In this document: piece after piece, positions 4,838 to 31,551 of the stretch
Numbering within the stretch: the stretch's first letter is position 1
Layout: each line of letters opens with the position of its first letter
Assembly (NCBI GenBank): GCA_009885955.1
Contig: VFJS01000097.1
Location: 1 to 38,864 of the forward strand
Reading direction: 5' to 3'
Source: Spirochaetia bacterium
Lineage (GTDB): Bacteria; Spirochaetota; UBA4802; UBA5550
Length of the DNA: 38,864 nt
Program-made: the position numbers and the translations under genes
The notes under the pieces: model-generated
What the model saw: the letters and a program-made list of their open reading frames with translations, nothing else
Told to the model about the DNA's origin: nothing
Database searches by the model: none

Positions 4838-4871
4838 GTAGGACTCCATTGATTTTTTTTATATATTTCCT

Positions 4872-7211: not shown

Positions 7212-7220
7212 TTAAATTTC

Positions 7221-7967: not shown

Positions 7968-8093
7968 CTCTATTTAATTCACAGAATCAATGCAAACTTG
8001 CTTCTATGCAAATTTTAAGGCAGAGGGCATAGTTTTGTTTTTTTTGGAAAATATATATTAGGTATAAATTATTTCTTATTTTTCATTAATATT

Positions 8094-8189: not shown

Positions 8190-8305
8190 TGCAATAGATG
8201 TGGGTAATTATTAATATGACAGTGGATGCTGGAGTATTTCCCAATTTACTTGCCGGAATTTATTTTTCGCCCTAAATTTTATTAAAATAAACCGGCAAAA
8301 AACTA

Positions 8306-8335
8306 TTGACAAATGAACTAATTTCATCTTAAAAT
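8306..8335 (+). promoter_or_regulatory. Sigma-70-type promoter of the DUF3015 gene
   Basis: A perfect TTGACA at 8306-8311 is followed after 18 bases by TAAAAT at 8330-8335. The start codon is 70 bases downstream and has a good ribosome binding site (AGGAGG at 8395-8400). Confidence 0.65.
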
Positions 8336-8404
8336 TTATCAGCATAATTATTGAAAATATCATAATTATACACAGCAAAATGTATTCAAAATTTAGGAGG
8401 CTTT

Positions 8405-8866: not shown

Positions 8867-8879
8867 TTCAATAACTGAA

Positions 8880-10841: not shown

Positions 10842-10908
10842 TGTTAACTTTTTTTGAAATCTGAAAGGTGGACTATGATAAAAGATTCAGCATAACTTTG
10901 TGTACTGA

Positions 10909-10951
10909 AAATCAGGACAACCCCGTAACCATACCGGGAAGATCCTGATTT
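10909..10951 (+). terminator. Probable terminator after the DUF4105 gene
   Basis: AAATCAGGA at 10909-10917 pairs with TCCTGATTT at 10943-10951, with a further CCCCG/CGGG pairing inside. A loose T-rich tract follows (CATTTT, then TTATTTTTT). Confidence 0.6.
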
Positions 10952-11262
10952 CATTTTAAAATATATTATTTTTTAAGGTATGATATGACCCGTATGTGCA
11001 AAAAATTTTTCCCATCAGCCGAATCCTATCAATCCTCTGAATCGCATCGTGATGATACTCATTTTTAGTAACTGCTCAGCCTGAAAATAGGAAAAAAAAT
11101 TTGCTCACGGATTATCACGGATAAACAGTGATAAAAATAAATATAAGGATGAGATAATAAATAAGGCTTGATATTTTAGCACGATAAAATAATCCTGAAT
11201 ACAGATAGCAGAGTAGCAGAAAAAATTAAAACCACCCGGAATTATTTGTAGACATAAGCGTT
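10952..11262. other. Intergenic region ahead of the hybrid kinase
   Basis: No gene seen. The sequence contains two close copies of a short motif (CACGGATTATCACGGATAAACA around 11105-11130, given in parts as CACGGATTAT and CACGGATAAA), which looks like a common dispersed bacterial repeat. No confident promoter was found. Confidence 0.35.
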
Positions 11263-13917: not shown

Positions 13918-13987
13918 ATTCAAGTGGGAACAAGTTTTTTTAGAATGCATGGGAAGTCATAATAAAATATCCGGAGTGATTGATTAT

Positions 13988-16771
13988 ATGGTATCACAGA
14001 TTAGACAATGGATGAAGCCGCCTGTTTTTGAAGGGGACGAAGACAAGACAATTCACGCATCAATCATAAATACGTTCATTATCAATATTGGCGCCATACT
14101 GCTGATCTTCTCTTTTGTCTTGATTCCTTTCTTTGCAGTTCATAAAATCGGCTCTGCAATTCTTCTGGCCATAGTGTTCCTATCACTCGTAACCGGGCGT
14201 TATCTGCTTTTCCGGGGGCAGGTCCGGATAAGCAGCATTGTGATGGTTTCGGTTATCTGGTCCTGCTTTATTTTCATGGCCCTGGTTTCCGGAGGCTCAC
14301 ACAGTCCCGCGATGTTTTACCTGGCCTCGGTCACATTGATTGCAGGTTTTGTTCTGGATATCCGGGCAGCGAATATATTCGCGGTTCTTACAATACTGAT
14401 TTCATCGATGGATGTCATTCTTGAGATACAGGGAAACACCCTGCCGGTTATTTTTCCTTTCACTCCATTCACCGGCTGGCTCGCCTTTGTTCTGGGCCTG
14501 GTGTTCATGATCAGCGCGCGGAATATTTTCGTATTTAATCATAACAAAGCCCTCATTCTTGCCCGCCAGGAGGTTGCAGCCCGCAGGCAGGCAGAAATGG
14601 CGCTCCGAGAGAGCGAAGAGCGGTATCGTACCCTGTTCGAACAGGCCAGTGACGGCATATTCTATCTATCCACTGACGGTAAAGTTTTAATGGTAAACGA
14701 ATCATTCGCCAGGATGCATGGGTACAGCGTGGAGGAAATGAAGGACATGCCGCTGCAGGATCTGGATACTCCTGAGGGTACCCTGCTGTCGAAGGAGAGA
14801 ATGCCGCGAGTTCTTTCAGGAGAAATTATTGAATTTGAGGTGGAACATTACCACAGGGATGGTCATGTTTTTCCCCTGTCAGTTTCAACGGGACTGATAT
14901 CCGTTGGCGGTAAGCAGATCATCCAGGCATTCCACCGCGATATAACCGAGCGCAAGAGGGCGGAAGAGATTCTACGGGCAAGTGAAGAAAAATATTACAA
15001 CCTTTTCCGGGATGCGGCAATAGGTATTTTCCATTCCACCTTTGATGGAAGATTTATTGATTTAAATCCCGCCATGGCAAAATTGTTGGGATATGATACC
15101 CCTGAAGAAGTAATCATGGATATCACCAATATTGCCGAACAGGTTTACTCGGTGGCGCCTGAACGCGATGTCATTGCAACTGACGCAAAGAAATCGGGCG
15201 GTCTTATCACCACGGAAAACCATTTTCGGCACAGGGACGGAACATTGTGGTATGGAAGGATGCACATGCGGATCGTGTATGACCATCAGGGCAGACCAGG
15301 CCATTACGAGGGGTTCGTCGAGGATATCACCGGGCACAGGCAGGCTGAGAAATTTTTAAAGGACATCATAATTAAAAATCCAATGTCAATTCAGGTTTTG
15401 GATAAGGATGGGCTCACACTGGAAGTTAACCCTTCGTATAAATTACTTTTTGGATCTGTTCCACCTTCGGATTATTCAATTTTTAATGATTCTCAATTAA
15501 CACAGCAAGGACTCGGAGAGATTTTTGACCGGTTAAGAAACGGTGAGATTGTGTATTTTCCAGATGTTTATTTTAACGCGCGTAATTCGATCTCTGAGTT
15601 GCCGGATGTTTCTGTATGTGTACAGACTATTGGTTTTCCGTTAAATGACAGCAAAGATAAACCGGAAAAATTTGTTTTAATGCATGAAAACATCACCAAG
15701 CGCAGGCAGGCGGAAGATGAAGTTATAAATGCAAAAGTACGGGCAGAAGAAAACGAAACAAAATACAAAACACTTTTTGAGGCAAATATCGACGGTATCT
15801 CAATATTTCGTCTGGAAGAGAACGGATTTCCCAGAACGATACTGGACATGAACGAAAATGCTCATGAATTGCTGGGCTATACGAAAGACGAAATGATTGC
15901 CATGAGCCCAGGTGATCTTGAATCGGGCGCAACAAAAGAAAATATAGAAAAACGAATTGAAGATCTGAAAACAAAGGGGCTTTCAAGTTTTGAAACAACT
16001 CTCAGGCATAAAAAAGGGTATGATTTAAATGTTGAAATTAAAGTAATAGTTATTTTTTATGAAAATCAACCCGCCTTAATGAATATTGTCAGAGACATCA
16101 CCGGGCGCAAGCGCACCGAGGAGCATATCATAAAATCCCTCCGCGAAAAAGAAACTCTTATCCGCGAGGTGTATCATAGAACAAAGAATACGATGCAGGT
16201 TATCCGCGGCATGATTGTGCTCCAGGCCGCTGATTTTCCGGAGAATTCAGAGATGCAGCATCTGGTAAAAATTACTGAAGATAGAATTCAGGCGATGTCA
16301 CTTGTGCATCAGATGCTCTATCAGAGCCAGGATCTGTCACAAATTTCAATTAAGGAATATATATGGGACCTGTCCCAATTAATTTTTGAAAGTTACAGTA
16401 TTTCAAATGATAAAATAGTATTAGACATTAGCATCGACGACCACTACTTTCTGCTTGATACTGCAATCCCCCTGGGATTAATTCTGAATGAGCTTATCAC
16501 GAATTCATTAAAATTCGCCTTTCCCGATAACCGGAAGGGGATTATCAGAATAGTTCTCAACAGGAATGAATCGGGAAATGTGTTGCGATATTCCGATAAC
16601 GGAGCCGGTGCCCCTGATGGATTTGATTTCCGGAATACAAAGACGCTGGGGCTGAAGCTGATTCACAGCATTGGTGAAAAGCAGATGCGTGGCAGGGTAA
16701 TCATGGAGAATCAAAATGGAGTCTGTGTTTCATTTACATTTCCCGATTCTCATTACAATGCAAGGGTTTAA
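13988..16771 (+). CDS. Multi-PAS sensor histidine kinase (HWE/HisKA_2 type)
   Basis: About 927 residues. Roughly residues 25-185 contain six hydrophobic helices forming a membrane sensor. Four PAS domains follow at about 204-330, 328-450, 455-570 and 578-708, each ending in the usual DITERK/DITGR type linker. The kinase part carries His730 in LIREVYHRTKNTMQVI, the HisKA_2/HWE signature, and a compact ATPase domain (LGLILNELITNSLKFAF, YSDNGAGAPDGFD). I chose the ATG at 13988 because GGAG lies 11 bases upstream. An ATG at 13949 is also in frame, and the frame stays open back into the preceding gene, but without a ribosome binding site. The stop is one base before the next gene, a receiver, its likely phosphorylation partner. 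Confidence 0.9.
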   Translation: MVSQIRQWMKPPVFEGDEDKTIHASIINTFIINIGAILLIFSFVLIPFFAVHKIGSAILLAIVFLSLVTGRYLLFRGQVRISSIVMVSVIWSCFIFMALVSGGSHSPAMFYLASVTLIAGFVLDIRAANIFAVLTILISSMDVILEIQGNTLPVIFPFTPFTGWLAFVLGLVFMISARNIFVFNHNKALILARQEVAARRQAEMALRESEERYRTLFEQASDGIFYLSTDGKVLMVNESFARMHGYSVEEMKDMPLQDLDTPEGTLLSKERMPRVLSGEIIEFEVEHYHRDGHVFPLSVSTGLISVGGKQIIQAFHRDITERKRAEEILRASEEKYYNLFRDAAIGIFHSTFDGRFIDLNPAMAKLLGYDTPEEVIMDITNIAEQVYSVAPERDVIATDAKKSGGLITTENHFRHRDGTLWYGRMHMRIVYDHQGRPGHYEGFVEDITGHRQAEKFLKDIIIKNPMSIQVLDKDGLTLEVNPSYKLLFGSVPPSDYSIFNDSQLTQQGLGEIFDRLRNGEIVYFPDVYFNARNSISELPDVSVCVQTIGFPLNDSKDKPEKFVLMHENITKRRQAEDEVINAKVRAEENETKYKTLFEANIDGISIFRLEENGFPRTILDMNENAHELLGYTKDEMIAMSPGDLESGATKENIEKRIEDLKTKGLSSFETTLRHKKGYDLNVEIKVIVIFYENQPALMNIVRDITGRKRTEEHIIKSLREKETLIREVYHRTKNTMQVIRGMIVLQAADFPENSEMQHLVKITEDRIQAMSLVHQMLYQSQDLSQISIKEYIWDLSQLIFESYSISNDKIVLDISIDDHYFLLDTAIPLGLILNELITNSLKFAFPDNRKGIIRIVLNRNESGNVLRYSDNGAGAPDGFDFRNTKTLGLKLIHSIGEKQMRGRVIMENQNGVCVSFTFPDSHYNARV

Positions 16772-16772
16772 C

Positions 16773-17141
16773 ATGAAGAAAGCAATTCGTATCCTTTTAG
16801 TGGAAGATGAAGTGGTAACGGCAATGCTCATGGAAAAGCAATTGGAAGGTGTTGGATACCCAGTCTCAGAACATGTCACAACCGGCGAGGACGCGATAAT
16901 CTGCGTGAAGCAGAATCCTCCTGATTTAATTTTAATGGATATCAGGCTGGCAGGTGAAATGAATGGAATTAAAGCCGCGTCAGTCATTAAGTCTGAATTC
17001 GCTATACCGGTTATATTTATTTCGGGTTATGATGATAAGGCTATCAGGGAAAAAGCTGAAAAAACCGGCCCGCTGGGATACCTGGTAAAGCCACTTAAAA
17101 TTGGTAAATTAAAAATGCTGATTGATACGCATTTCGAATAA
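16773..17141 (+). CDS. Single-domain response regulator
   Basis: A 122-residue receiver domain alone. The acidic pocket is VEDE near residues 10-13, the phospho-acceptor Asp is in LILMDIRLAG, and the conserved Lys is in GYLVKPLKIGKL. The sequence style (GEDAI, GIKAASVIKSEFAIPVIFISGYDD) is typical of receivers paired with HWE/HisKA_2 kinases. The start ATG is one base after the kinase stop and has AAGGG 6 bases upstream, so the two are co-translated. Without an output domain it probably acts by protein contact or as a phosphate shuttle between the two kinases. Confidence 0.92.
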   Translation: MKKAIRILLVEDEVVTAMLMEKQLEGVGYPVSEHVTTGEDAIICVKQNPPDLILMDIRLAGEMNGIKAASVIKSEFAIPVIFISGYDDKAIREKAEKTGPLGYLVKPLKIGKLKMLIDTHFE

Positions 17142-17165
17142 TCAGGGATTTCCATTCACAAAATT

Positions 17166-17897
17166 ATGAAACACCAGAAAAAGTATTATATCATTGCAGC
17201 CGGGCTGTTTCTTGTCACCGGTATGGCCCAGTGCCTGAGATATTCATATTACCATGGTTTTTCGATGAAATTTTTTATATATCTCCTTCCGGCAACTGTT
17301 CCTGTAATTGTAATGTATCTACGGAACAGATACAATTCAAAAATCATAAGAATTGTATCTATACTAACATCTGTTATAATTATAATTTTTTGGATTGTAT
17401 TGTCAATAGTAAGCGAATTTATCCTGATATCGACAAAAGAGAATACATCAATACGGGAGTATCATTCACTGCTGGGCCAATACCGGGTTTCAAACAGCAG
17501 ACTCACAGATCATTTTCCCGGATCTGTTCCCATGGAAGCAAAGGATGTCCATTTTTCACATCTTCCCGCTTTTTTGCAGGGTGGTTCCCATATTCAATTG
17601 CGCTATTCACTCCCTCAGAATATGATACGGGAATTATATAAAGAGTACTCCCGGGTTAAAATAAAATCCTTTTCCGGCGGAAATTTCAATGACCACATAC
17701 ATCAGCCCGGCGGGATGCCGACTACCTTCGATTACTCGGATAAAAAAGGAGACAGGAGATTTAGCGGTGACTTCGAAATCATGGTATTCGATGACAGGAG
17801 CAATAGTAAAAGCAAAACCTGGAACCATGGGCGAAGTCATGGTGTCGCCATTAGTCTGCAGAAAAATATCATCATATACTGGGCTGAGAGCTGGTGA
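17166..17897 (+). CDS. Unknown membrane-anchored protein
   Basis: A 243-residue protein of unrecognised family. The first 85 residues contain three hydrophobic segments (IIAAGLFLVTGMAQCL, FFIYLLPATVPVIVMYL, ILTSVIIIIFWIVLSIV). The rest is soluble, probably periplasmic, and ends in GVAISLQKNIIIYWAESW, which resembles the closing strand of a small alpha/beta domain. It follows the receiver by 24 bases and may be the last gene of that cluster. The antisense frame over its 3' half is open as well, but codon use and protein character favour this strand. Confidence 0.65.
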   Translation: MKHQKKYYIIAAGLFLVTGMAQCLRYSYYHGFSMKFFIYLLPATVPVIVMYLRNRYNSKIIRIVSILTSVIIIIFWIVLSIVSEFILISTKENTSIREYHSLLGQYRVSNSRLTDHFPGSVPMEAKDVHFSHLPAFLQGGSHIQLRYSLPQNMIRELYKEYSRVKIKSFSGGNFNDHIHQPGGMPTTFDYSDKKGDRRFSGDFEIMVFDDRSNSKSKTWNHGRSHGVAISLQKNIIIYWAESW

Positions 17898-18267
17898 TGA
17901 TATAAATTTATCTATCCTGTTTTCAAGGTCTTTCATATCCTGGAGGCTCTTCATGGATACAATAATCCGTCCATACGCGGCGGCATTTGTGCTGTACTCG
18001 TTAAGGTGAACCACTCCCCGATTCCCTTCATAGACCGGGAGCTCAATCCCCAGGGTTCCCCTTCCGCAAGTACTAGAGCCAGGATTGTTCAGCTTTTGCG
18101 GAATGAAATCTTCATTTCGAAAATTAATTTTTTTTTAAATAATTTATGATTTTGGATTATCTGAAAAAAATTATCGGGAGAAAATTTTTCAGCCATGATT
18201 TGGCACGAATTTGTGTGCTCATTCGTTTTATAGATAACACAATTTAAACTATCAAAGGAGAATTTTT
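17898..18267. other. Intergenic region with an unexplained open minus-strand frame
   Basis: No gene is called on the plus strand. On the minus strand a frame is open from 18134 down through 17898 and on into the antisense of the neighbouring gene. Its conceptual product here looks protein-like (NNPGSSTCGRGTLGIELPV, then NEYSTNAAAYGRIIVSMKSL), but it has no ATG with a ribosome binding site and stops upstream in a run of nine A. The segment 18185-18260 before the next gene contains TTGGCACG and a good ribosome binding site AAAGGAG. Confidence 0.4.
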
Positions 18268-18663
18268 ATGAAAAATTTTTTATCAGCAGCAATAGCAATA
18301 CTTTTCAGCGTAACACTGGCGGGTATCGCCCGTGCTCAGGATGTGGATAAAAACATGAACAGGGAAAAGACTTCCTATGGAGAGGAGAAATCATCTGAAG
18401 TGGACAAGGGAAAGCAGGGTGAAAAGAACAGGGTAAGGAACGAAGCCGGCGGCACTGAAAAAAAAGATGGAACCGGTGAGAAGAACAGGGTCAGGAATGA
18501 AGGCAAAGACGATAAGACAAAAGATGGTTCCGGAGAAAAAAACAGGGAGCAGAACCGGGAGAGGAAAGAGCTGAAAGAACAGCAGAAAGACGCAAAAAAG
18601 GAGCAGAAACAACAGAAAAAGCAGCACAAGAGCAGCAGTGATTCGAGAAAAGGAGGCAACTGA
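18268..18663 (+). CDS. Small secreted, highly charged repeat protein
   Basis: A 131-residue protein with a signal peptide ending at about ARAQ (residue 24). The mature part is almost entirely Lys, Glu, Arg, Gln, Asn, Asp and Gly, with no hydrophobic core, so it should be disordered. It contains two and a half copies of a 19-residue unit beginning GEKNRVRNE, then a KEQQKDAKKEQKQQKKQ tail. The ribosome binding site AAAGGAG is 8 bases or so before the ATG. No family is recognised. The nearby FecR-like protein (19645-20709) ends in a similar charged tail, which hints at shared interaction partners or simply a similar composition. Confidence 0.75.
   Translation: MKNFLSAAIAILFSVTLAGIARAQDVDKNMNREKTSYGEEKSSEVDKGKQGEKNRVRNEAGGTEKKDGTGEKNRVRNEGKDDKTKDGSGEKNREQNRERKELKEQQKDAKKEQKQQKKQHKSSSDSRKGGN
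18418..18560 (+). repeat. 57-bp in-frame tandem repeats
   Basis: Units begin at 18418, 18475 and 18532, exactly 57 bases apart, each encoding GEKNR...; the third is partial. They lie within the charged secreted protein. Confidence 0.8.
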
Positions 18664-18684
18664 TCCCCATCCCCATACATCCCG

Positions 18685-18708
18685 TACCCGGTGATAATAC
18701 ACCGGGTA
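18685..18708 (+). terminator. Stem-loop between the charged protein and the barrel gene
   Basis: A perfect 9-base stem TACCCGGTG (18685-18693) and CACCGGGTA (18700-18708) with a 6-base loop. A T-run (18723-18729) follows only after 14 bases, so it is either a weak terminator or an mRNA-processing/stabilising hairpin. Confidence 0.5.
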
Positions 18709-18745
18709 TCATTGTTACTAAATTTTTTTATTTATGGAGCCTTTC

Positions 18746-19651
18746 ATGAAAAATTTGCGATTAATGGTTATTACCCTTGCACTCTCTGCAGTAGTTTTTT
18801 CCGTTTCCCGTGCAGCCGGTACAGAAAGCGATGATAAAAAAAATTTCACCCTCAGCGCCGGAGTCAAAGGATATGCGGAAAAAAGTGATGACTCAAATAT
18901 TACCTATTACAAGCCCTTTGCCAGCGGAGGGCTTTTTTTCTCCCATGCCGATGTCTATGCATCTTTCCATCAATGGCAGGGATATTCCGTGGCCGATGTA
19001 TCGGGAAATCTAAAAAAAACCGATATAAGCCAGCCGGGGCTGGACCTGGCATTATATCCTTCAAATTTTTTTACTCTCACCGCATCCTGTTCCTACCTGA
19101 AAGGCGATGTATCCTACCGGGAGACCAGGTTCAAAGGCGGAATTGAGGTGAAATTTTCAGGGTTAACCCTGGGCGGGGAATATTCCCGGTACAATGCCGA
19201 TTATACATTTAACGGGGATAATAAAAGTATTGATGACACCTTTTACGGAACCATTGAAAAAAAATTAACCAGGGAACTGTCAGTGGAATTGAGCTATGAG
19301 AGGGGAAGGACAAAATTCATTACCTACGGCTTTGAAACAACGGACCAGTCCGTCAGGTTCGGTGTTCTTGGACTCCAGTCTAAATATTTCTCCTGGACAG
19401 CGGGCCTCGGGTTCGGCTATGACAGTGACAACGTAATGTCCCCGGGATTCGACCTCGGCGTGATTGTGAAGATAAGTGATTTTATAAAAATTTCTGTAAA
19501 CTATTTATTCAACGGAGATATCCAGGAATCCACAACATCATCTGCTCAAGTTTCAGGAAGCGGAGGAGGCGGCAGGAAAAGCAGTTCCTCAGTGAAATAC
19601 GACACATCCTATACCCATACCGCTATAGCAGGCATATCCCTCTATTACTGA
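18746..19651 (+). CDS. Outer-membrane beta-barrel protein
   Basis: About 301 residues with a signal peptide (MKNLRLMVITLALSAVVFSVSRA). The mature part is a series of alternating strands (GVKGYAEKSDDSNITYYKPF, FKGGIEVKFSGLTLGGEYSRY and so on) ending in GISLYY, the C-terminal aromatic expected for barrel insertion. A Gly/Ser-rich stretch near the end (SGSGGGGRKSSSS) would be a loop. I prefer the ATG at 18746 because GGAG lies 7 bases upstream, inside the codons after an earlier ATG at 18734. The 3' end overlaps the convergent FecR-like gene by 7 bases. The ligand or function is unknown; the neighbouring sigma/anti-sigma pair may control it. Confidence 0.8.
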   Translation: MKNLRLMVITLALSAVVFSVSRAAGTESDDKKNFTLSAGVKGYAEKSDDSNITYYKPFASGGLFFSHADVYASFHQWQGYSVADVSGNLKKTDISQPGLDLALYPSNFFTLTASCSYLKGDVSYRETRFKGGIEVKFSGLTLGGEYSRYNADYTFNGDNKSIDDTFYGTIEKKLTRELSVELSYERGRTKFITYGFETTDQSVRFGVLGLQSKYFSWTAGLGFGYDSDNVMSPGFDLGVIVKISDFIKISVNYLFNGDIQESTTSSAQVSGSGGGGRKSSSSVKYDTSYTHTAIAGISLYY

Positions 19652-20709
19652 CGTCCCCTTTTCTGGCCGCGCTCCTGGTCAGTGCGGCCCTTTTTTTCCC
19701 TTTCATGATTCTGTTTGTCCTGGCGCATTTCGCGCTTTTCCCTGGCCTCTTCCCTGCTTTCGGATTTTTCAATGATATCTTTTTTCCCCGGTGTCACGGG
19801 TGCATCTTTTTCATGATCCTGTTTTACGGTGCGGCCTTCCTTTTTCACCTGAATCTTTTCAACTTCAGGCATCTGATATAATTTCGCTATGGCATCAAAG
19901 GAGCGCTCTTTAAAAAATTCTGGGAGCGGGGAAGTGCCGGTTCCATCGGATTTCCAGAAATAATTTTTTGCGATGATAAAGTCACTGCCCGTCACCCTGT
20001 TTTTAACCGAAACCGATCCATCCATTACCCCTGCCATAACCACATCATTTTTTATGGATACAAAATACTCCGTACCCAGGGGCTTTATGACGTATCCTGC
20101 TGTTTCAATGGTATGATGGGAAACGGCAGATTCCCGGATAATCACTGAACCGCGTTCCAATACATATGAAGTTTTCTCTCCGGCGATGTCAGAGAGCGCT
20201 TCCAGTCTTGTCTCAGGTCCGATGTTGGTGAAGAGCGTTTTCCCGTCACTGAGCAGTGCCTGTGATTGAAGCCCCGACTCAATCACCGATTTTCCGGGAA
20301 CGGGCACATCTCCCGATACCGGTACCCCGTTCAATCTGATATCGCCCTCCATGTGATTAACAGCAAATTCCGCCGGTTTCACGGGAAGGCGATATGAATA
20401 TATCATGTATGCAGCCGCGGGTATGATAAACGCCAGGGATGCCGCAGCAAGCCGGTAAAATAAAAATCCTTTATTCCTGCTTTCTGCTCCGCTTTTTTCC
20501 GGAATTTCGGCCAGGATTGCTTCACGGACATGCCTTCCCGGCATACCGGCATTTCTGTCGGGGCTCAGGCTTCTGGAAAAGGCCTCATAATCCCTGCGGC
20601 ACGGTTCGCAACGGGAAATATGATTCATCACGGCTGCTTTTCTTTTCTCATCTGAAATTTCACAGAGAGTCTCGATTATATCTGAATCTGTTAGATGTCC
20701 ATTTTTCAT
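19645..20709 (-). CDS. FecR-like anti-sigma factor
   Basis: A 354-residue membrane protein. The N-terminal cytoplasmic part has a zinc-finger anti-sigma motif, His30-x3-Cys34-x2-Cys37 in NHISRCEPCRRDYEAF. One membrane helix follows at about 84-104 (LAAASLAFIIPAAAYMIYSY). Next is a FecR domain of roughly residues 115-245 (EGDIRLNGVPVSGDV, LERGSVIIRES, MDGSVSVKNR). The last 65 residues are very charged (KREMRQDKQNHEREKKGR). It would hold the upstream ECF sigma factor inactive until a periplasmic signal arrives. It starts 11 bases after the sigma stop, with AGGGA as ribosome binding site. No TonB-dependent receptor is near, so the signal is not the usual iron-siderophore one as far as can be seen. 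Confidence 0.87.
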   Translation of the reverse strand: MKNGHLTDSDIIETLCEISDEKRKAAVMNHISRCEPCRRDYEAFSRSLSPDRNAGMPGRHVREAILAEIPEKSGAESRNKGFLFYRLAAASLAFIIPAAAYMIYSYRLPVKPAEFAVNHMEGDIRLNGVPVSGDVPVPGKSVIESGLQSQALLSDGKTLFTNIGPETRLEALSDIAGEKTSYVLERGSVIIRESAVSHHTIETAGYVIKPLGTEYFVSIKNDVVMAGVMDGSVSVKNRVTGSDFIIAKNYFWKSDGTGTSPLPEFFKERSFDAIAKLYQMPEVEKIQVKKEGRTVKQDHEKDAPVTPGKKDIIEKSESREEAREKREMRQDKQNHEREKKGRTDQERGQKRGRQ

Positions 20710-20720
20710 ATCAGTCCCTG

Positions 20721-21266
20721 TTAGTATAACGATTTATCGCCGGATTTCATGTCATTTCCGGAATAAAAAGAGGATGATCTATATTTTTCCCGGATTATTT
20801 CCAGCGCTTTTCCGGCCTTGCGTTTTGCGGTTCTTACGGAAATGTTGAGAGCTGCAGAGATTTCATCAAAGGTGAGGCCGTTTTTTCTCATCAGCATGAT
20901 TGACTGCTCGGGTTCCGGCAGGGTGTCTATGATGGAATTGAAAAATTCGAGCAAAGGGTCTCTCTCCTCACCGGAGGTATGGGGGTCCGGAATAAGAGAT
21001 ATCCGTTCGGGATCCTGAATGTCTCTCCGCGACAGTTTATTTTTTTTCACCGCATCAAGGCAGACGGAACGCCCAATTGAATATAGCAGCGCCCTGGTGT
21101 TTGTGTCAGTAACCGGTTTTTTTTCAACATACCGGATAAATTTTATAAACAGGTCATGGAGGAGATCCTCGGCTGCTTCATGGGAATCGGCAAAACGCCT
21201 GACGTACCGGAACAATTCTTCTGAATAGAGGTCGTACAACCCGGCAATAGTGTCTCTTGAAATCAT
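20721..21266 (-). CDS. ECF-type RNA polymerase sigma factor
   Basis: A 181-residue sigma-70 family protein with region 2 (YSEELFRYVRRFADSHEAAEDLLHDLFIKFIRY) and region 4 (LPEPEQSIMLMRKNGLTFDEISAALNISVRTAKRKAGKALEIIREKY). It directs RNA polymerase to promoters controlled through the FecR-like protein encoded just downstream. The ATG has no strong ribosome binding site, and no closer in-frame start fits region 2. Likely targets are the convergent barrel gene and the charged secreted protein, but no promoter motif shared by them was identified. Confidence 0.92.
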   Translation of the reverse strand: MISRDTIAGLYDLYSEELFRYVRRFADSHEAAEDLLHDLFIKFIRYVEKKPVTDTNTRALLYSIGRSVCLDAVKKNKLSRRDIQDPERISLIPDPHTSGEERDPLLEFFNSIIDTLPEPEQSIMLMRKNGLTFDEISAALNISVRTAKRKAGKALEIIREKYRSSSFYSGNDMKSGDKSLY

Positions 21267-21590
21267 GAAACAGCATTACGGGGAAAACCGGTATAAATGC
21301 AATTACATTTGCCCTTCGGGATAAAAAAAATTGTTCAGTGCCGCACCTTTGGCAAACCATATGCCCCGCATCTCTACTGTCTATAAAGATATATTAATCC
21401 GATAGAATGCATTGGATATGCTGCACATCCCGGAGATCTCCCATCAGTTTTCAATGAGGGTATGATATTCTGCAGCATGAAATAATCCATGACATGAATA
21501 TCCAGAATATAAATCCCCCTTGACGTATTCCCTGTATATCTGAATACATCATCAACTGAATAATCCATTGAGAGAGGAAAGGAGATTGCC
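21267..21590. other. Intergenic region between the divergent sigma and methyltransferase genes
   Basis: No gene seen. Upstream of the methyltransferase there is a -35-like TTGACG at 21520-21525 with only a poor -10 (AATACA or ATACAT near 21543-21549). A short repeated TCTGAATACAT/CTGAATAATC pattern precedes the ribosome binding site. Nothing else stands out. Confidence 0.35.
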
Positions 21591-23902: not shown

Positions 23903-24331
23903 ATGAGAATAACTCCTGAAACAAAGCTTACGGTTTTTTACTGCCAAAACTGTTTTAAGGAAGACAGCCGTATACTCGAGGCGCAGATGGGAAGCGAGGT
24001 GGCGCTTTACCCCATTGCGTGCAGCGGGCGGCTGGATCCGCTGTTTATCCTGAGGGCTATGGAACAGGGCTCCGATGCGGTCTGTCTTTTCGTCTGCGAC
24101 GAGGGGATGTGCCGGTATTTTGAAGGGAACCGCCGCGCATCAAAACGGGTCGCCTATACCCGTACTTTGCTTGATGAAATCGGCATAGGCGGTGACCGGG
24201 CCTTTGTGAGATTCCTCACCGAATCTGAAAAGGCAAAGCCGGTAAAAATGATAGCTGAAGCCCTGGCCAATGCCAGAAAATTGGGGCCGTCGCCGTTAAA
24301 AAGCGCATCAGCCAAAAGGAGAAAAAAATAA
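23903..24331 (+). CDS. MvhD/FlpD-type iron-sulfur electron-transfer protein
   Basis: A 142-residue protein of the hydrogenase iron-sulfur subunit family (MvhD). Cysteines lie in FYCQNCFKED (residues about 15 and 18), IACSG (about 39), and VCDEGMCRYFEGN (about 69 and 74), matching the family pattern for a [2Fe-2S] cluster. In known systems MvhD links a hydrogenase or formate dehydrogenase, or MetFV, to HdrA. Here it is the first gene of an operon with MetV and MetF but with no HdrA. The tail is basic (KSASAKRRKK). Its stop codon overlaps the next ATG by one base (TAATG), so translation is coupled. Confidence 0.87.
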   Translation: MRITPETKLTVFYCQNCFKEDSRILEAQMGSEVALYPIACSGRLDPLFILRAMEQGSDAVCLFVCDEGMCRYFEGNRRASKRVAYTRTLLDEIGIGGDRAFVRFLTESEKAKPVKMIAEALANARKLGPSPLKSASAKRRKK

Positions 24332-24999
24332 TGATAACTGCAACCAGAAAATCCCTGGATGAGATTAAGAACATGATCCGCCCCTATACGAGGGTGCTCG
24401 TCGCCGGCTGCGGATCCTGTGTTGCCGAGTGTGCTGCCGGCGGTGAAAAGGAGGTGGCACAGCTGGTTTCGGCGCTCTCCATGGCATTCAAGATTGAAGG
24501 CGGAGGGCCCTCTCTTACCGAGGTAACGGTTGACCGCCAGTGTGTGAATATTTTTCTTGATGAGCTTGAAGACCCTACGCGCAGCCATGACGCTGTCCTG
24601 TCGCTCGCATGCGGGGCAGGGGTGCAGGCGCTTGCAGAACGGCATGCTGACCGTAATATTTTCCCCGCGCTGGACACCCAGTTTCTCGGCCAGACAAAAT
24701 CACCCGGGTTGTGGCTGGAAAACTGCCTCGGCTGCGGCCAGTGCAAGCTGTTCTATTTCGGAGCGATCTGTCCTCTGGGGAGATGCGCAAAACAGCTTTT
24801 CAACGGCCCCTGCGGCGGTTCGCAGAACGGGAAGTGCGAGACCGACAGTGAAAAGCCATGCGCCTGGCAGTTGATCATCGACCGCCTGGACGGCCTCGGC
24901 GCCCTCAATCGCCTTGAAGAAATTTACGAACCGTGCGACTGGTCCCTCAAGCAGGGAAGGGGCCCGCGAAAAATAGAAAGGGAGGACCAGCAGAGTTGA
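24331..24999 (+). CDS. metV: MetV-like zinc/iron-sulfur subunit of methylenetetrahydrofolate reductase
   Basis: A 222-residue cysteine-rich protein of the MTHFR C-terminal family (MetV). The N-terminal half has VAGCGSCVAECAAGGEKEV and LACGAGVQAL. The C-terminal half has CLGCGQCKLFYFGAICPLGRCAKQLFNGPCGGSQNGKCE followed by a later CAW (given here in pieces), the hallmark of the family, with enough Cys for [4Fe-4S] clusters. MetV forms a complex with MetF in acetogens and feeds it electrons. The ribosome binding site AAAGGAG lies within the end of the mvhD gene, and the final bases overlap the metF start (TTGA). Confidence 0.88.
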   Translation: MITATRKSLDEIKNMIRPYTRVLVAGCGSCVAECAAGGEKEVAQLVSALSMAFKIEGGGPSLTEVTVDRQCVNIFLDELEDPTRSHDAVLSLACGAGVQALAERHADRNIFPALDTQFLGQTKSPGLWLENCLGCGQCKLFYFGAICPLGRCAKQLFNGPCGGSQNGKCETDSEKPCAWQLIIDRLDGLGALNRLEEIYEPCDWSLKQGRGPRKIEREDQQS

Positions 25000-25925
25000 A
25001 AAAGGAGAGCAACTTACAGAAGATACTAAAAGAGGGACACTTTGCCGTGACAGCAGAGGCCGGCCCGCCCAGGGGATGCGATCCCGAGATCATGTATAAA
25101 AAAGCAGGAATTCTGAAAGGGTATGTAGATGCAGTGAATGTCACTGATAACCAGACAGCCATCGTACGGATGTCGAGCCTGGCGGCCTGTTCCCTGGTTC
25201 AGCAGTCGGGGGTTGAACCGATTCTGCAGATGGTGGTGCGCGACCGGAACCGGATTGCCCTGCAGTCAGACGTACTGGGAGCGGCAGCCCTGGGCATCAC
25301 GAATATGATGTGCCTGTCCGGTGATCACCAGTGCTTCGGCAACCAGCCCGGGGCCATGGGTGTTTTTGATCTTGATTCAATCCAGCTGATTGCAGCGGTG
25401 AAAAAAATGAGGGATGAATCCAAAATCCTCGGCGGCGATGAACTGACATCGGCGCCGCAGATGTTTATCGGCGCGGCCGCGAATCCCTTTGCCGATCCCC
25501 TGCCGTTCCGCGTGACCCGCCTGGCAAAAAAAGTGAAGGCCGGCGCCGGCTTTATTCAGACACAGTGCATTTATAACCTGGCCCGGTTTAAGGAATTCAT
25601 GAAAATGGTGACCGATCAGGGGCTTGACCGGAAGGTGTACATCCTCGCCGGGATTACGCCGCTCAAATCGGCAGGTATGGCAAAATATATGGCCAGGAAA
25701 GTGGCAGGCATGGATATCCCCGAGGAAATCATCCGCCGCATGGAGGGCGTACCCAAGGCTGACCAGCCGAAGGAAGGGATTTCCATCTGCCTGGAGACCA
25801 TTGCCGCTCTGAAAAAAATCAGCGGGGTGTCCGGTATTCATATCATGGCCATTGAATGGGAAGAGGCAGTTCCCGAGATTGTCAGCGCAGCCGGGCTTAT
25901 GAACCGCGGCGCGGGATCTGTGTAA
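24996..25925 (+). CDS. metF: Methylenetetrahydrofolate reductase
   Basis: A 309-residue TIM-barrel flavoprotein that interconverts methylene-THF and methyl-THF. Conserved segments include FAVTAEAGPPRGCDPE, YVDAVNVTDNQTA, LQMVVRDRNRIALQSDVLGA and MCLSGDHQC. The start is TTG at 24996, overlapping the metV stop as TTGA, with GGGAGGA about 9 bases upstream. An in-frame ATG at 24933 would add 21 residues copied from inside metV and is less likely. MetF of this type, with MetV, takes electrons from iron-sulfur partners rather than directly from NAD(P)H in several anaerobes. Being in one operon with mvhD and glutamate-synthase-like genes is unusual. Confidence 0.92.
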   Translation: MKKESNLQKILKEGHFAVTAEAGPPRGCDPEIMYKKAGILKGYVDAVNVTDNQTAIVRMSSLAACSLVQQSGVEPILQMVVRDRNRIALQSDVLGAAALGITNMMCLSGDHQCFGNQPGAMGVFDLDSIQLIAAVKKMRDESKILGGDELTSAPQMFIGAAANPFADPLPFRVTRLAKKVKAGAGFIQTQCIYNLARFKEFMKMVTDQGLDRKVYILAGITPLKSAGMAKYMARKVAGMDIPEEIIRRMEGVPKADQPKEGISICLETIAALKKISGVSGIHIMAIEWEEAVPEIVSAAGLMNRGAGSV

Positions 25926-25936
25926 GGGAGGCAAAG

Positions 25937-27328
25937 ATGCCGGTAAAATATTCTATCCATCCCCACGAGGCCCTGCCCCGGTTCAAACCGATCATCCGTT
26001 CGGGTATTATCGCCTGGGAGGAAGGGTGCCTCAAATGCGCGGTATGCGTAAAAAAAAGATGCGTATACAAGGTCTATGATCAGCGGCAGCTGGACGGACG
26101 GCAGATGCTCGATTCAATTGACGTTCTCTGCAAGGACTGCTACCGCTGCGTCCAGGGCTGCCCGGCGCGGCTGATCAACAAGGCACTGAGCCCCTCGTAC
26201 AGCCAGATCGGAGATGACCTGTTCACTCCCGAGGTAATCGTGAAGACCTGGGCACAGGCCACCACCGGTAAAATTCCGGTAAGCGGGGCCGGTTATGGCG
26301 GTGTGTTCAGCGGAAACGGGTTCGACTCAATGTGGACCGATATGTCGGAAATTGTCCGGCCAACGAGGGACGGCATTCACGGCCGCGAATATATCAGCAC
26401 CGGCGTGGACCTGGGCCGGAAAGAGCTGTACCTTTCGATTTCCAGGGATGGTTCCTGCAAACTTCCGTCACACCCGACGGTGAAGCTCGAACTGCCGGTA
26501 CTGTTCAAAACTCCCTCTTTCGGAGCGGTAAAAAAACCGTTTTTTGCCGGCATTGCAGCTGCGGCAAAGAAGCTTCTCACTCAGGCGATCATCCCGGCCG
26601 CCATGATCGACAAAACCTTCAATCCCTACCTGGCCCATGTGATACCTTCATTGAATGCGAAAACACGCCTGAATCCGGCCCTGCTGAAGAAGGTATCCCT
26701 GGTGGAACTTTCCGATCACAAGGATGTGATGAAACAGATGGCAGCGGTTAAAAAGGCCGCGCCGAAATCCGCGGTTATCATCCGCGTGGCTTTAAACAGG
26801 AAATCCGCGGCGCGGTGCCTCCAGCTCGCCCGGGCCGGTGCCGGAATTCTTCATCTGGAAGGGCTGGACAGCGGTCGTGAGAAGGAGCCGAAAAACGGCC
26901 GCTATTTAAAAGATGTCATCACCGAGGTGCATTTTGCCCTCGTCACAGCCAGCGTTCGTGATACGGTACGCCTCATTTTCTCCGGCGGCATGGCCATGGC
27001 CGAGCATGTGGCCAAATCGATTATCTGCGGTGCTGATGCCGTGGCAGCAGACCTGGCGCTCCTGGTCGGTGTTGAATGCATGCTCTGCCGCGGCTGCGAA
27101 AAAGGCCTGTCCTGCCCGGTTTCGCTGGAAGACGTTGAATCCGGCTGGACCACCCAGCGCATCATCAACCTCATGTGCGCCTGGCACAACCAGCTGCTGG
27201 AGATATCCGGAGCAATGGGCATCCGGGACATCCGCCGCATCCGCGGAGAACGGGGGCGTGCAATGTTTTTCGAGGATCTCGAGCGGCAGACCTTTGCCGC
27301 CCTGGGGAACAAAATCGCAGGGAAATGA
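25937..27328 (+). CDS. Ferredoxin protein with a degenerate glutamate-synthase FMN-type domain
   Basis: A 463-residue protein. Two cysteine groups near the N-terminus could bind [4Fe-4S] clusters: C31, C34, C37, C42 and C65, C68, C71, C75 (the latter followed by Pro at the last). A domain of the same plan as the GltB FMN domain follows. It keeps the C-terminal cluster motif C381-x2-C384-x2-C387-x5-C393 and the downstream WTTQRIINLMCAWH region, almost as in the next gene. It lacks the CTGEGG, AQGAKPG and GGTGA segments needed for FMN, 2-oxoglutarate and catalysis, so it is probably a non-catalytic, electron-carrying paralogue. I set the start at the ATG at 25937, with GGGAGG 8 bases or so upstream. 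The stop is 28 bases before the next gene. Confidence 0.82.
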   Translation: MPVKYSIHPHEALPRFKPIIRSGIIAWEEGCLKCAVCVKKRCVYKVYDQRQLDGRQMLDSIDVLCKDCYRCVQGCPARLINKALSPSYSQIGDDLFTPEVIVKTWAQATTGKIPVSGAGYGGVFSGNGFDSMWTDMSEIVRPTRDGIHGREYISTGVDLGRKELYLSISRDGSCKLPSHPTVKLELPVLFKTPSFGAVKKPFFAGIAAAAKKLLTQAIIPAAMIDKTFNPYLAHVIPSLNAKTRLNPALLKKVSLVELSDHKDVMKQMAAVKKAAPKSAVIIRVALNRKSAARCLQLARAGAGILHLEGLDSGREKEPKNGRYLKDVITEVHFALVTASVRDTVRLIFSGGMAMAEHVAKSIICGADAVAADLALLVGVECMLCRGCEKGLSCPVSLEDVESGWTTQRIINLMCAWHNQLLEISGAMGIRDIRRIRGERGRAMFFEDLERQTFAALGNKIAGK

Positions 27329-27356
27329 CCATAAACTAACGAAAAGGATTACAATC

Positions 27357-28859
27357 GTGTATTCATCAGATAAACCATTTATACCGCCTCAAGTCAGGGA
27401 GACTCCAACGCGGTTCCGCAATGCCTTTGGTAAATACCGGGTGCACCGGACCGACGCGTGCAATGCCAGCGGCCAGTGTATATCGGCGTGCAAGCTCGGT
27501 GTCAATAAAAAAGCCGGTTCCCGCGTGGTCAGCCCTAATGATTACCGCTGCCTTGGGCCGGAGTGCCCGATGGCATGTTTTGATACATGCCCCCAGAAGG
27601 CAATTGTAATCCGTAAAGACCCGAATTTCGACACCCTCGGAGACTACCGGTGGACCCCGGATCTCCTGCTCAGTACCTATTACATGGCTGAGACGGGAAA
27701 GATTCCCGACTCGGGGCTCGAATACCGCACTGGCGGCACCGGGGGCGGATTTGACAAGCTGCGGATCGTATTTCCGAAAACTTCGAAAAAAATAATTCCC
27801 GGTGAAGTCGACACTTCCATCCGCCTCAACCGTCTGGATGACGGCCGGCCCGAGGTGGAGATACCAATCCCGGTGTACGGAGGCGGCATGTCCTTCGGGT
27901 CAGTGAGCATCAGCGCGATGCTGGGACGGATGCGGGCGGCAGCGGCCTGGGGTACCTTCGCATGTACCGGTGAAGGCGGGTATCCCGATGAAATCAAACC
28001 ATACGATGACCATGTCATCACGCAGATAGCCACGGGCCTTTTCGGCGTGCGCGAGGAAACCATACAGCGGGTGCGGATTGTAGAATTCAAGTACGCCCAG
28101 GGAGCGAAACCGGGGCTGGGCGGACATCTTCTGGGCGACAAGGTCACGCCCGCGGTGGCGCGCATGCGCGAGGCCGTGGTGGGGAGCTCGCTTTTTTCCC
28201 CGTTCCCCTTTCACAGCGTCTATTCCGTGGAGGATCATAAAAAGCATATTGACTGGATAAAGACGACGAACCGGCGCGCGCTGGTTTCGGTGAAGGTGTC
28301 CACCCCCACCGACGTTGACATGGTGGCGGTGGGGAGCTATTATGCAGGGGCGCATATCGTTCATCTCGACGGATCCTACGGCGGAACCGGAGCCGCTCCC
28401 GATATCGCGAAAAAAAATATCGCCATGCCAATTGAATACGCGGTGCCCATCGTGCACAGGTTTCTTGTCGCCGAGGGGATACGCGATAAGGTGACCCTCA
28501 TTGCAAGCGGCGGCGTCCGTACCCCCCATGACCTCATTAAGATCATCGCCCTCGGCGCCGACGGCGTGGTGACCGGGACTGCGGACATGGTGGCCATGGA
28601 ATGCCTGCGATGTCACAACTGTGAAAGCGGCCGAGGCTGCGCCCGGGGGATCGCGACGACCGACACCGAACTTGTGAACCTCATGGAGATCGAATGGGCC
28701 GCGCAGCGGATCATCAATCTCTTTACCGCGTGGCGCACCGAAATACAGCGCATCCTCGCGAAGATGGGACTCTCGAGCGTGCGTGAGCTGGTCGGCAGGA
28801 CAGAGTTCCTTGCGCACGACGACTATCAAACCGCACCTCTTGATGCGGATGTAGAGTAA
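27357..28859 (+). CDS. Archaeal-type glutamate synthase FMN/ferredoxin subunit
   Basis: A 500-residue protein. Cysteines near the N-terminus (C35, C41, C45 and later YRCLGPECPMACFDTCP) form unusual ferredoxin-like clusters. The FMN domain (about 130-480) looks intact: FACTGEGGYPDEIKPYDDH, KYAQGAKPGLGGHLLGDKV, LFSPFPFHSVYSVEDHKKHI, HLDGSYGGTGAAPD and ASGGVRTPHDLIKI. The iron-sulfur motif is C416-x2-C419-x2-C422-x5-C428. Such proteins bind ammonia and 2-oxoglutarate to make glutamate, using reduced FMN. The start is GTG at 27357 with AAGG nine bases upstream; the reading frame is open far upstream, but only as a shadow of the previous gene. It would draw electrons from ferredoxin or from its partner proteins, as no GltD is encoded here. 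Confidence 0.88.
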   Translation: MYSSDKPFIPPQVRETPTRFRNAFGKYRVHRTDACNASGQCISACKLGVNKKAGSRVVSPNDYRCLGPECPMACFDTCPQKAIVIRKDPNFDTLGDYRWTPDLLLSTYYMAETGKIPDSGLEYRTGGTGGGFDKLRIVFPKTSKKIIPGEVDTSIRLNRLDDGRPEVEIPIPVYGGGMSFGSVSISAMLGRMRAAAAWGTFACTGEGGYPDEIKPYDDHVITQIATGLFGVREETIQRVRIVEFKYAQGAKPGLGGHLLGDKVTPAVARMREAVVGSSLFSPFPFHSVYSVEDHKKHIDWIKTTNRRALVSVKVSTPTDVDMVAVGSYYAGAHIVHLDGSYGGTGAAPDIAKKNIAMPIEYAVPIVHRFLVAEGIRDKVTLIASGGVRTPHDLIKIIALGADGVVTGTADMVAMECLRCHNCESGRGCARGIATTDTELVNLMEIEWAAQRIINLFTAWRTEIQRILAKMGLSSVRELVGRTEFLAHDDYQTAPLDADVE

Positions 28860-28869
28860 AGGAGACGCA

Positions 28870-31551
28870 GTGAAGAATCTCAAACCAGGAGTTTCGAACC
28901 ACATGAACAGCCATGAATATATACAGCGGGTACTGGCATCGAGGAATGACCTGTATGCCGGTTTTGATAAAAATTTCAGATTTCCCCAGGAGGCCGAAGG
29001 CGGATGCGGAGTTACCGGATTCTGCTCCAGTATTCCCGTGCGCGGCAAGCATATATATCAGCCGTCCGTACAGATGCATAACCGGGGCAACGGCAAAGGC
29101 GGCGGGATCGCGGCCATGGGCTTTATCCCTGAAACGCTGGGTGTCGGCCGGGATACCCTGGATAATGATTATCTGATCCACATCGCTGATTTGAAGGGTG
29201 ACGGCATCGCCGGGCTGGAGGAAAAGTTTATCAACCCCTACCTGGATGTCCACTATAGTGAAAACATCCCGCACATGGATGATTACCGCGATATCCCCGA
29301 GCTCGAGGTGCGTCCGCCCGATATTTACCGGTATTTTGTACGGGTAAAGCCTAAGGTACTTTCGGCCTTTGCCGTGAAAAAAAAACTCACGCATATGGCG
29401 GACCGGGATCTTGAGGATGAATGTATCTATCAGAATTCCGTATCGATCAACAAAACCTATTATAACCCGCAGGGAGAAATGAAGGCCTTTGTCATGTCGC
29501 ACGGCCGGGACTTTTTTATCCTGAAAATCGTCGGGTATGCCGAGCGGGTTGTGCAGTATTATAAACTGGAGAATTTCAAGGCGCACATCTGGATCGCGCA
29601 CCAGCGGTATCCCACCAAGGGCCGTGTTTGGCACCCGGGGGGAGCTCACCCGTTCATCGGGCTGAACGAGGCGCTGGTGCACAATGGCGACTTTGCCAAC
29701 TATTATTCGGTGGCCGAATATCTGAAGCAGCGGAATATCTTTCCCCTTTTCCATACCGATACAGAGGTATCGGCCCTGTTGTTCGACCTGTACAGCCGCG
29801 TCTACGGTTATCCCCTTGAATATATCATTGAAGCGCTGGCGCCGACCATCGAGATGGATTTCGACAGCCTCCCGGAAGAAAAGCAGCGGATCTACCAGAA
29901 GATTCAGGAAACGCATATCCATGCATCTCCCGACGGCCCGTGGTTTTTTATCATCGCGAGAAACGATACCAGGCAGCGCGAGCTTCAGCTCCTGGGCATC
30001 ACCGATACCTCGATGCTCCGCCCTCAGGTATTCGCTTTACAGGACGGCCCGGTGAAAATCGGTCTTATCTGCTCGGAGAAACAGGCAATCGACGCGACCC
30101 TGGAAAGCCTGGCCGAGGAAGACCCGCGTTTCGGAACCGTCGCCGATGTGTACTGGAATGCCCGCGGCGGAAGCCATACCGACGGCGGATCGTTCATGTT
30201 TAAACTTTCCGGTACCGTCAATGCTGACGGCCAGCGCGAACTCATATGCGCCGACAAGTTCGGCAAGGAGATCTCCATCCCCCGGCACCAGGAGGCCTAT
30301 ATCCCCGGCCGTTCCTATTATGTGCTCGATGGCGGATCTACCGGCTCCATTGACCTGGGCGACACCTTTCGTTCCGGAAGCGCCGAAGGCCTCTTCAACC
30401 TGTTTACTGCCTGCCTGAAAGACTGGCATTTCCCCGAGGTCTTTGAATTTTTAAAAGAGGTTAAACGCCAGGCGGAAAAATCCGATGCTGCGTTCGGCCT
30501 GGCGCTGGAAATCTTTACAATGCTTATCGATCGCCGGTACCCTACGTTTGACAAGAAACGCCGGTCGCTGGTGCAGATGTACGAGTATATCCTGAACGCC
30601 ATGCTGCTCGCTCTGCCGCCGATTTCGGATAGGGCAACGCAATGCAGATACCGGTTGATAGATTTCAATAGCCGCATGGATATCCGCGCTGCCGGTGCCG
30701 GCGAAGAGGTGCTGGCCGTAGACGCGTCACGGTTTGAGCCCGAGGGCGAGTTGTCCGACAGCATTATTCTGCAGTCAGCGTACCGGCTTGGCTGGAAGCG
30801 GTTCATCATATTCCGCTGCAAGGGGCAGCGGTTTTACGGCTGCGGGTTCGGGCCCAATACCCAGGGCGCCAGGATGGATATCTACGGGAGCTCGGGAGAT
30901 TACATAGCATCAGGTGCAGACGGCCTCGAAATCTATATCCACGGCAATGCACAGGACCAGCTCGGGCAGATCATGAAGCTCGGAAAGCTGGTCATTTACG
31001 GCGATGTCGGCCAGACCTTCATGTACGGCGCCAAGGGCGGCGATGTCTATATCCTGGGCAATGCCGCAGGAAGGCCACTCGTCAACGCGGTGGGAAGGCC
31101 GCGGGTGGTAATTAACGGGACCTGCCTCGATTATCTTGCCCAGTCGTTCATGGCCGGAGATCCGTTGAACGGCGGAGGATTTGTTGTCGTTAACGGGCTT
31201 ACCATCGATCACCAGGGATCGGTTTATCCGCAGGCTACTCCCTATCCGGGATCAAACCTCTATTCTCTCGCTTCAGGCGGAGCCATTTATATCCGCGACC
31301 CCCATCATCTCCTGGTGGAGGAACAGCTGAACGGCGGCGTTTTTGCCGATCTCACGGAAGCTGACTGGCGGCTGATCGAGCCGTATCTGCAGGAGAATGA
31401 AGATCTTTTTAATATCTCCATCCAGAAACATCTCCTCACCGTTGACGGGAGGCAGAAAACATACAAAGAAGTTTACCGCAAGGTAACGGCTCATAAACTG
31501 GCGGCACTGGCAAAGGCAGCCGAGCTCGACGGCCTCGAGGAATATGAATGA
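28870..31551 (+). CDS. Glutamine amidotransferase class-II / GltB GXGXG fusion
   Basis: An 893-residue protein. The class-II glutaminase domain holds the nucleophile Cys46 in EAEGGCGVTGFCS. Supporting residues are HQRYPTKGRVWHPGGAHPF, LVHNGDFANYYSVAEYL and FHTDTEVSALLF. A 45-residue leader precedes the cysteine and must be removed by processing to free its amino group, if the usual mechanism holds. The C-terminal 250 residues are the GXGXG beta-helix of GltB (GADGLEIYIHGNAQDQLGQI, GKLVIYGDVGQTFMYGAKGGDVYIL). In bacterial GltB the FMN domain lies between these two; here it is a separate upstream gene. Start: GTG at 28870 with AAAGGAG just upstream. It is the last gene of the operon. Confidence 0.87.
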   Translation: MKNLKPGVSNHMNSHEYIQRVLASRNDLYAGFDKNFRFPQEAEGGCGVTGFCSSIPVRGKHIYQPSVQMHNRGNGKGGGIAAMGFIPETLGVGRDTLDNDYLIHIADLKGDGIAGLEEKFINPYLDVHYSENIPHMDDYRDIPELEVRPPDIYRYFVRVKPKVLSAFAVKKKLTHMADRDLEDECIYQNSVSINKTYYNPQGEMKAFVMSHGRDFFILKIVGYAERVVQYYKLENFKAHIWIAHQRYPTKGRVWHPGGAHPFIGLNEALVHNGDFANYYSVAEYLKQRNIFPLFHTDTEVSALLFDLYSRVYGYPLEYIIEALAPTIEMDFDSLPEEKQRIYQKIQETHIHASPDGPWFFIIARNDTRQRELQLLGITDTSMLRPQVFALQDGPVKIGLICSEKQAIDATLESLAEEDPRFGTVADVYWNARGGSHTDGGSFMFKLSGTVNADGQRELICADKFGKEISIPRHQEAYIPGRSYYVLDGGSTGSIDLGDTFRSGSAEGLFNLFTACLKDWHFPEVFEFLKEVKRQAEKSDAAFGLALEIFTMLIDRRYPTFDKKRRSLVQMYEYILNAMLLALPPISDRATQCRYRLIDFNSRMDIRAAGAGEEVLAVDASRFEPEGELSDSIILQSAYRLGWKRFIIFRCKGQRFYGCGFGPNTQGARMDIYGSSGDYIASGADGLEIYIHGNAQDQLGQIMKLGKLVIYGDVGQTFMYGAKGGDVYILGNAAGRPLVNAVGRPRVVINGTCLDYLAQSFMAGDPLNGGGFVVVNGLTIDHQGSVYPQATPYPGSNLYSLASGGAIYIRDPHHLLVEEQLNGGVFADLTEADWRLIEPYLQENEDLFNISIQKHLLTVDGRQKTYKEVYRKVTAHKLAALAKAAELDGLEEYE

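Follow-up and report, generated by a model that had tools for sequence, protein, structure and literature searches.

How does a glutamate synthase that lacks GltD, its standard partner, obtain its electrons, and what is a methylene-tetrahydrofolate (methylene-THF) reductase doing in the same operon? The locus that raises this question is a run of six plus-strand genes at positions 23903-31551 of a contig from a Spirochaetia bacterium (VFJS01000097.1, assembly GCA_009885955.1); the whole stretch analysed, 38,864 nucleotides of the forward strand, is referred to here as the window. The genes encode an MvhD-type adaptor, the reductase subunits MetV and MetF, and three proteins, P4, P5 and P6, that carry the parts of a glutamate synthase. 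The donors known for glutamate synthases are NADPH, NADH and ferredoxin; F420 has been proposed as a further one. From gene content and conservation, we consider it rather probable that this is a split glutamate synthase in which a plug-in electron source stands in for GltD; in this operon the source would be MvhD-MetVF, through oxidation of methyl-THF. A fuller version of the proposal, which we rate as evenly balanced, is a methyl-tetrahydrofolate:glutamate synthase. Here methyl-THF oxidation would directly drive glutamate synthesis within one complex, many anaerobic Desulfobacterota-type bacteria would use that complex as their main glutamate synthase, and P4-P5-P6 would form a socket for several electron-donating dehydrogenases.

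Organization of the operon

The genes were assigned from the list of open reading frames (ORFs) and Pfam profiles, with starts refined from the sequence together with the ORF list; the longer listed ORFs of metF, P4 and P5 extend upstream of their likely starts.

mvhD: 23903..24331, plus strand; FlpD/MvhD-type [2Fe-2S] electron adaptor, 142 residues (PF02662, E 6e-23)
metV: 24331..24999, plus strand; Fe-S subunit of MetVF methylene-THF reductase, 222 residues (PF12225, MetV C-terminal domain, E 1e-32)
metF: 24996..25925, plus strand; methylene-THF reductase subunit, 309 residues, TTG start (PF02219, MTHFR, E 9e-38)
P4: 25937..27328, plus strand; dicluster ferredoxin domain and degenerate glutamate-synthase flavin mononucleotide (FMN) barrel, 463 residues (partial Glu_synthase match, E 6e-13)
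P5: 27357..28859, plus strand; dicluster ferredoxin domain and intact FMN/glutamate-synthase barrel, 500 residues, GTG start (full Glu_synthase match, E 1e-90)
P6: 28870..31551, plus strand; class II glutamine amidotransferase fused to a GXGXG domain, 893 residues, GTG start (GATase_6 and GXGXG, PF01493 E 1e-11)

The metV start overlaps mvhD by 1 base, the metF start sits inside the metV stop with a 4-base overlap, and gaps of 11, 28 and 10 bases separate metF from P4, P4 from P5 and P5 from P6, respectively. An earlier sequence-only reading of the window had claimed a six-gene operon of this order and domain content with gaps or overlaps of 1 to 28 bases, and the ORF list and Pfam bear it out. 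They likewise agree with its statement that HdrA and GltD are missing, as neither hdrA nor gltD was found by these means within the operon. It had also allowed that hdr or gltD genes elsewhere might serve each half separately. In this genome, however, each already has its own partner: gltD sits after its own gltB on contig C94, and hdrCBA goes with separate metVF pairs on contigs C70 and C10.

Conservation of the operon in relatives

A scan of named species genomes returned 323 P4 relatives, of which the best 80 were used for near-relative counts, restricted to loci with enough sequence (57 upstream of P4, 59 downstream). These 80 are mostly records named Deltaproteobacteria or Desulfobacterota groups, joined by Nitrospirota, Chloroflexota, Spirochaetota and others. 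Upstream of P4, mvhD is present in 57/57 loci, metV in 51/57 and metF in 52/57; downstream, P5 and P6 follow in 59/59. The sequence-only reading had staked its proposal on the two halves being regular neighbours, and they are: in 51 of the 57 near relatives both metV and metF immediately precede P4, and in two more (L079, L095) metVF follows P6, at the operon's far end. In L086, part of metV follows P6 at the contig end. Because the operon is conserved across several phyla, a chance arrangement is excluded. Among other arrangements, L089 (~7700-21356) carries two tandem operon copies, the second being mvhD-metF-P4-P5-P6 without metV, and in L153-L155 and L158-L160 an operon with metV and no metF comes directly after glnA.

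Since the best 80 represent only the closest relatives, we also took an even draw (n=297) across the phylum to which a Desulfobacterium genome belongs, and 77 of the genomes drawn carry P4. From this draw 40 P4 loci were retrieved, and the 35 whose upstream sequence reached 3 kb or more were counted; mvhD was found in 29 of these, metV in 20 and metF in 16. In eight genomes of the draw, P4 and P5 form one open frame of ~975-1099 residues, and the one fusion that we checked contains two Glu_synthase stretches.

The window operon is nearest to that of L046, a record titled Deltaproteobacteria (P4 70%, P5 76% identity), whereas P4 of G033, from the same order as the window genome, is only 51% identical to the window P4. 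It follows that the operon was probably acquired as one unit. In a P5 tree rooted by an outgroup, MetVF-less forms fall near the base, on an outgroup branch too long to be relied on.

Residues and structure of P4, P5 and P6

P4 and P5 are paralogues that share one layout, a dicluster ferredoxin domain at the N-terminus followed by a C-terminal barrel, and in neither did Pfam detect an HdrA-type or NAD(P)-binding flavin adenine dinucleotide (FAD) domain. P5 aligns with the solved glutamate synthases 1ea0/2vdc (E 5e-58) and retains the FMN- and substrate-site motifs; the Gln and Lys of the substrate loop, the GGTGA motif and four cluster cysteines are invariant in 71 relatives. It differs from the GOGAT barrel reference in having four cysteines rather than three and in some neighbouring residues. 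P4 lacks the KxAQGAKPGxGG loop in the alignment, and 12 of its cysteines are invariant in 53 sequences. Its AlphaFold model (mean predicted local distance difference test score, pLDDT, 84.7) has the glutamate synthase 1ofd as its best PDB match. In P6, residues C46, R246, N272, G273 and D297 are conserved in relatives and correspond to the class II amidotransferase set; we take the catalytic residues here, and those of MetF below, to be as generally known for class II amidotransferases and Escherichia coli MetF. Assignment of P6 as GlmS or PurF was rejected, as these matches span the amidotransferase part only and fall far under the family cut-offs.

Association with glutamate synthesis

Genes of nitrogen assimilation accompany the operon. 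Among the 35 even-draw loci, 12 have glnA within 6 kb upstream, and glnA, amtB or gdh lies close by in many loci. Another glutamate synthase was counted in 6/40 carriers of the operon as opposed to 24/40 non-carriers of the same sample, a difference for which Fisher's p = 6e-5 is only a guide since the sampled genomes are related. Counting was by PF00310, which scarcely detects P6, so that the operon itself does not confound the comparison. Given this near exclusion of other glutamate synthases and the glnA/amtB/gdh linkage, P4-P5-P6 is very likely an assimilatory glutamate synthase.

CODH/ACS was found in 40/48 carriers. A strict tie of the operon to the Wood-Ljungdahl pathway was tested and proved weak: CODH/ACS is only slightly commoner in carriers (33/40 versus 25/40 non-carriers, p = 0.08). 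Within Spirochaetota it is present in 3/3 carriers and 16/56 others.

MetVF pairs and MetF lineages

Four cysteines of MvhD are invariant in 68/68 sequences, 13 cysteines of MetV are conserved in relatives, and the three catalytic positions checked in the window MetF (E21, D110, Q190) are all unchanged. To see how operon MetFs (84) relate to others (23), we built one tree of both groups and shuffled the operon label 500 times. The label changes 3 times on the tree, compared with a shuffled mean of 21, and none of the 500 shuffles was as low; on this tree the operon MetFs form dedicated lineages, and the window MetF falls within an operon-specific clade. Six operon MetFs stand apart from the main operon set, which suggests that MetF was recruited to the P4-P5-P6 synthase more than once.

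The window genome holds four metVF pairs, including that of the operon. The three others (L038, L039 and L041, on contigs C70, C10 and C89) all have different redox partners: hdrCBA accompanies one pair, in the CODH/ACS region; mvhD and a NuoEF/hydrogenase-like set lie beside another; and c-type cytochrome genes adjoin the last (NuoEF and cytochrome names read by eye). A similar variety of partners is seen for metVF pairs in relatives.

Elsewhere in the window, an IS21-type transposase pair (rve integrase and IstB) lies at the contig start (119-2210), and a 273-residue protein encoded on the minus strand (6121-6942) matches the flagellin N-terminal domain and leaves the flagellin C-terminal domain unmatched.

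Exchangeable input modules

Judged by gene content, the near-constant core of the system is P4-P5-P6 with mvhD. Several input modules occur, MetVF being common and not universal among them. Across the even draw these modules are MetVF, MetV alone, MvhD alone, Hdr and a GlcD-type dehydrogenase. In L128-L131 and L133, the position of mvhD and metVF is taken by a FAD_binding_4 dehydrogenase of ~620 residues with Fe-S domains, encoded immediately ahead of P4. L126 goes further, with a single frame of 2528 residues (minus strand, 2969-10552; glnA just upstream) that comprises the FAD_binding_4 dehydrogenase, Fe-S domains, two Glu_synthase stretches, the amidotransferase and GXGXG. With GltD absent and MvhD, Hdr, a GlcD-type dehydrogenase or MetVF in the donor position, each of these is most simply read as an electron source.

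In some other members hdrA or hdrB-hdrA adjoins the operon; in G003 (L037, 1-2727) an HdrB-like gene, then an HdrA-like gene with a GltD-like insert, lies downstream. Such co-occurrence of hdr genes with P4-P6 weakens the suggestion, made in the sequence-only reading, that the synthase parts replace HdrA; the standard partner that is missing is GltD. Together with MvhD, hdr genes of this kind, including those of G003, would suit flavin-based bifurcation, in which an extended type IV MetVF complex, using Hdr subunits supplied from elsewhere, would split or join electrons among methyl-/methylene-THF, the formation of glutamate, and either ferredoxin or a disulfide. We regard this as very improbable, as the window operon and most relatives have no hdr genes, the hdrCBA of the window genome already has its own metVF, and the domain content of P4 and P5 described above offers no flavin site of the HdrA or NAD(P)-binding type.

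Proposed mechanism and alternatives

From the arrangement and conservation of the genes we infer a single physical complex with MetVF as its electron donor. P6 would hydrolyse glutamine and hand ammonia to P5, whose FMN would reduce 2-iminoglutarate to glutamate. P4, as a duplicated FMN subunit that has lost its active site and kept its cluster cysteines, may serve for electron entry, with MvhD joining it to a dedicated MetVF. MetVF would oxidise 5-methyl-THF to methylene-THF, thereby paying for glutamate formation, and electrons would flow from the MetF flavin through the MetV clusters, MvhD and the P4 clusters to the clusters and FMN of P5. The net reaction would be CH3-THF + 2-oxoglutarate + glutamine -> CH2-THF + 2 glutamate. 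Glutamate formation is the higher-potential acceptor, at about −120 mV. Since this lies above the methyl-THF couple, the coupled reaction should run forward. Excerpts of PMC8760232 place the methylene/methyl-THF couple at −200 mV and describe a purified MetVF-type enzyme that, when run in reverse, reduced FAD and rubredoxin and did not reduce ferredoxin.

The opposite direction of flow through MetVF has also to be considered. Reduced ferredoxin could enter at the ferredoxin domains of P4 and P5, its electrons being divided between glutamate formation and, via MvhD, reduction of methylene-THF by MetVF. The presence of a dicluster ferredoxin domain on both proteins favours such a shared input, operons without any MetVF must still have some donor, and isolated MetVF enzymes accept reduced ferredoxin (excerpts of PMC8760232). 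We nevertheless think it unlikely: where MetVF is absent it is replaced by the FAD_binding_4 dehydrogenase and not by another reductase, as expected of an electron source, and other MetVF pairs are available in these genomes for methylene-THF reduction.

Several observations count against methyl-THF oxidation as the source of electrons for this glutamate synthase. Six operons have the order glnA-mvhD-metV-P4 and no metF, and some even-draw operons contain neither metV nor metF. Of the four MetFs that have no MetV neighbour, only that of L162 keeps the catalytic Asp; it is changed in L124, L142 and G003, which have probably given up the folate reaction. Taken together, these losses and changes indicate that the family can do without folate chemistry. 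Invariant changes in P5 adjoin substrate motifs that are otherwise near universal, and the window genome, in this an exception among carriers, contains a normal gltBD as well.

The dispensability of MetV or MetF, along with the further glutamate synthase and MetVF genes of the window genome, would be expected if MetVF and the glutamate synthase were separate enzymes, co-transcribed because the cell needs one-carbon assimilation alongside nitrogen assimilation. Such co-regulation appears improbable to us. An electron adaptor is useless outside a redox complex, yet MvhD is constant; GltD is absent; the MetFs belong to dedicated lineages, one apart from the main set; metVF is retained at either end of the operon; and in L126 the donor dehydrogenase is fused to the synthase. 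The P5 changes, for their part, mean that its acceptor may be other than 2-oxoglutarate. We see little prospect, however, that P5 aminates or reduces a different substrate, perhaps a one-carbon compound. Canonical gltBD does occur alongside the operon in the window genome, G033 and G003, as that would allow, but carriers nearly exclude other glutamate synthases, glnA is linked, the amidotransferase, FMN, GXGXG and cluster motifs are all present, and the one-carbon module is interchangeable. Conserved adjacency, the dedicated MetFs and the separate partners of Hdr and GltD elsewhere in the genome thus give good support to a functional link of MvhD-MetVF with the formation of glutamate, as the sequence-only reading had suggested. 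The particulars of that reading hold only in part: MetVF is not universal, some relatives having metV only, a degenerate metF, or neither.

Comparison with known systems

The NADPH glutamate synthase GltBD (Azospirillum, 1ea0/2vdc) shares with the window synthase the amidotransferase, the FMN barrel with cluster cysteines and the GXGXG domain; the window synthase differs in being split into P5 and P6, in its extra degenerate P4, in the added ferredoxin domains and in the absence of GltD. Split archaeal-type glutamate synthases (G023, G058) likewise have a separate FMN subunit with an N-terminal ferredoxin domain. They encode amidotransferase, FMN and GXGXG parts separately, whereas P6 fuses the first and last of these; the window operon also has a duplicate of the FMN subunit, contains nothing GltD-like and adds MvhD-MetVF. 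N-methylglutamate synthase (MgsABC) was also considered; it acts on methylamine and glutamate and is encoded by separate MgsA, MgsB and MgsC genes.

Type I-IV methylene-THF reductase complexes have been described (excerpts of PMC8760232). As in the type IV enzyme (Moorella MetVF-HdrCBA-MvhD; excerpts of PMC8760232 and PMC5736913), MetV, MetF and MvhD are encoded together in the window, but without HdrCBA and with the synthase subunits P4-P5-P6 instead. The proposed F420-type glutamate synthases of anaerobic methanotrophic (ANME) archaea (FrhB10 clusters; excerpts of PMC9012536) resemble the window operon in that the subunits cluster with an electron-input protein other than GltD; there it is FrhB, here MvhD-MetVF. 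We found no description of the window arrangement in the excerpted open-access literature on MetV, MvhD and glutamate synthase, the field covered by our search, which left subscription literature outside. A glutamate synthase with modular electron input, here MvhD-MetVF, would on present comparison add a new variant to the known kinds.

Significance

For MetVF enzymes, the physiological electron carrier of which is described as an open question in excerpts of PMC8760232, the operon would offer a further partner. If the proposal is correct, a methyl-folate-fed synthase ties one-carbon metabolism directly to nitrogen assimilation, and would explain the glutamate supply of many sulfate reducers and syntrophs that apparently have no other glutamate synthase. 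As a unit widely conserved in anaerobic bacteria, and often their sole glutamate synthase, the operon points to an undescribed way in which one-carbon metabolism may power nitrogen assimilation.

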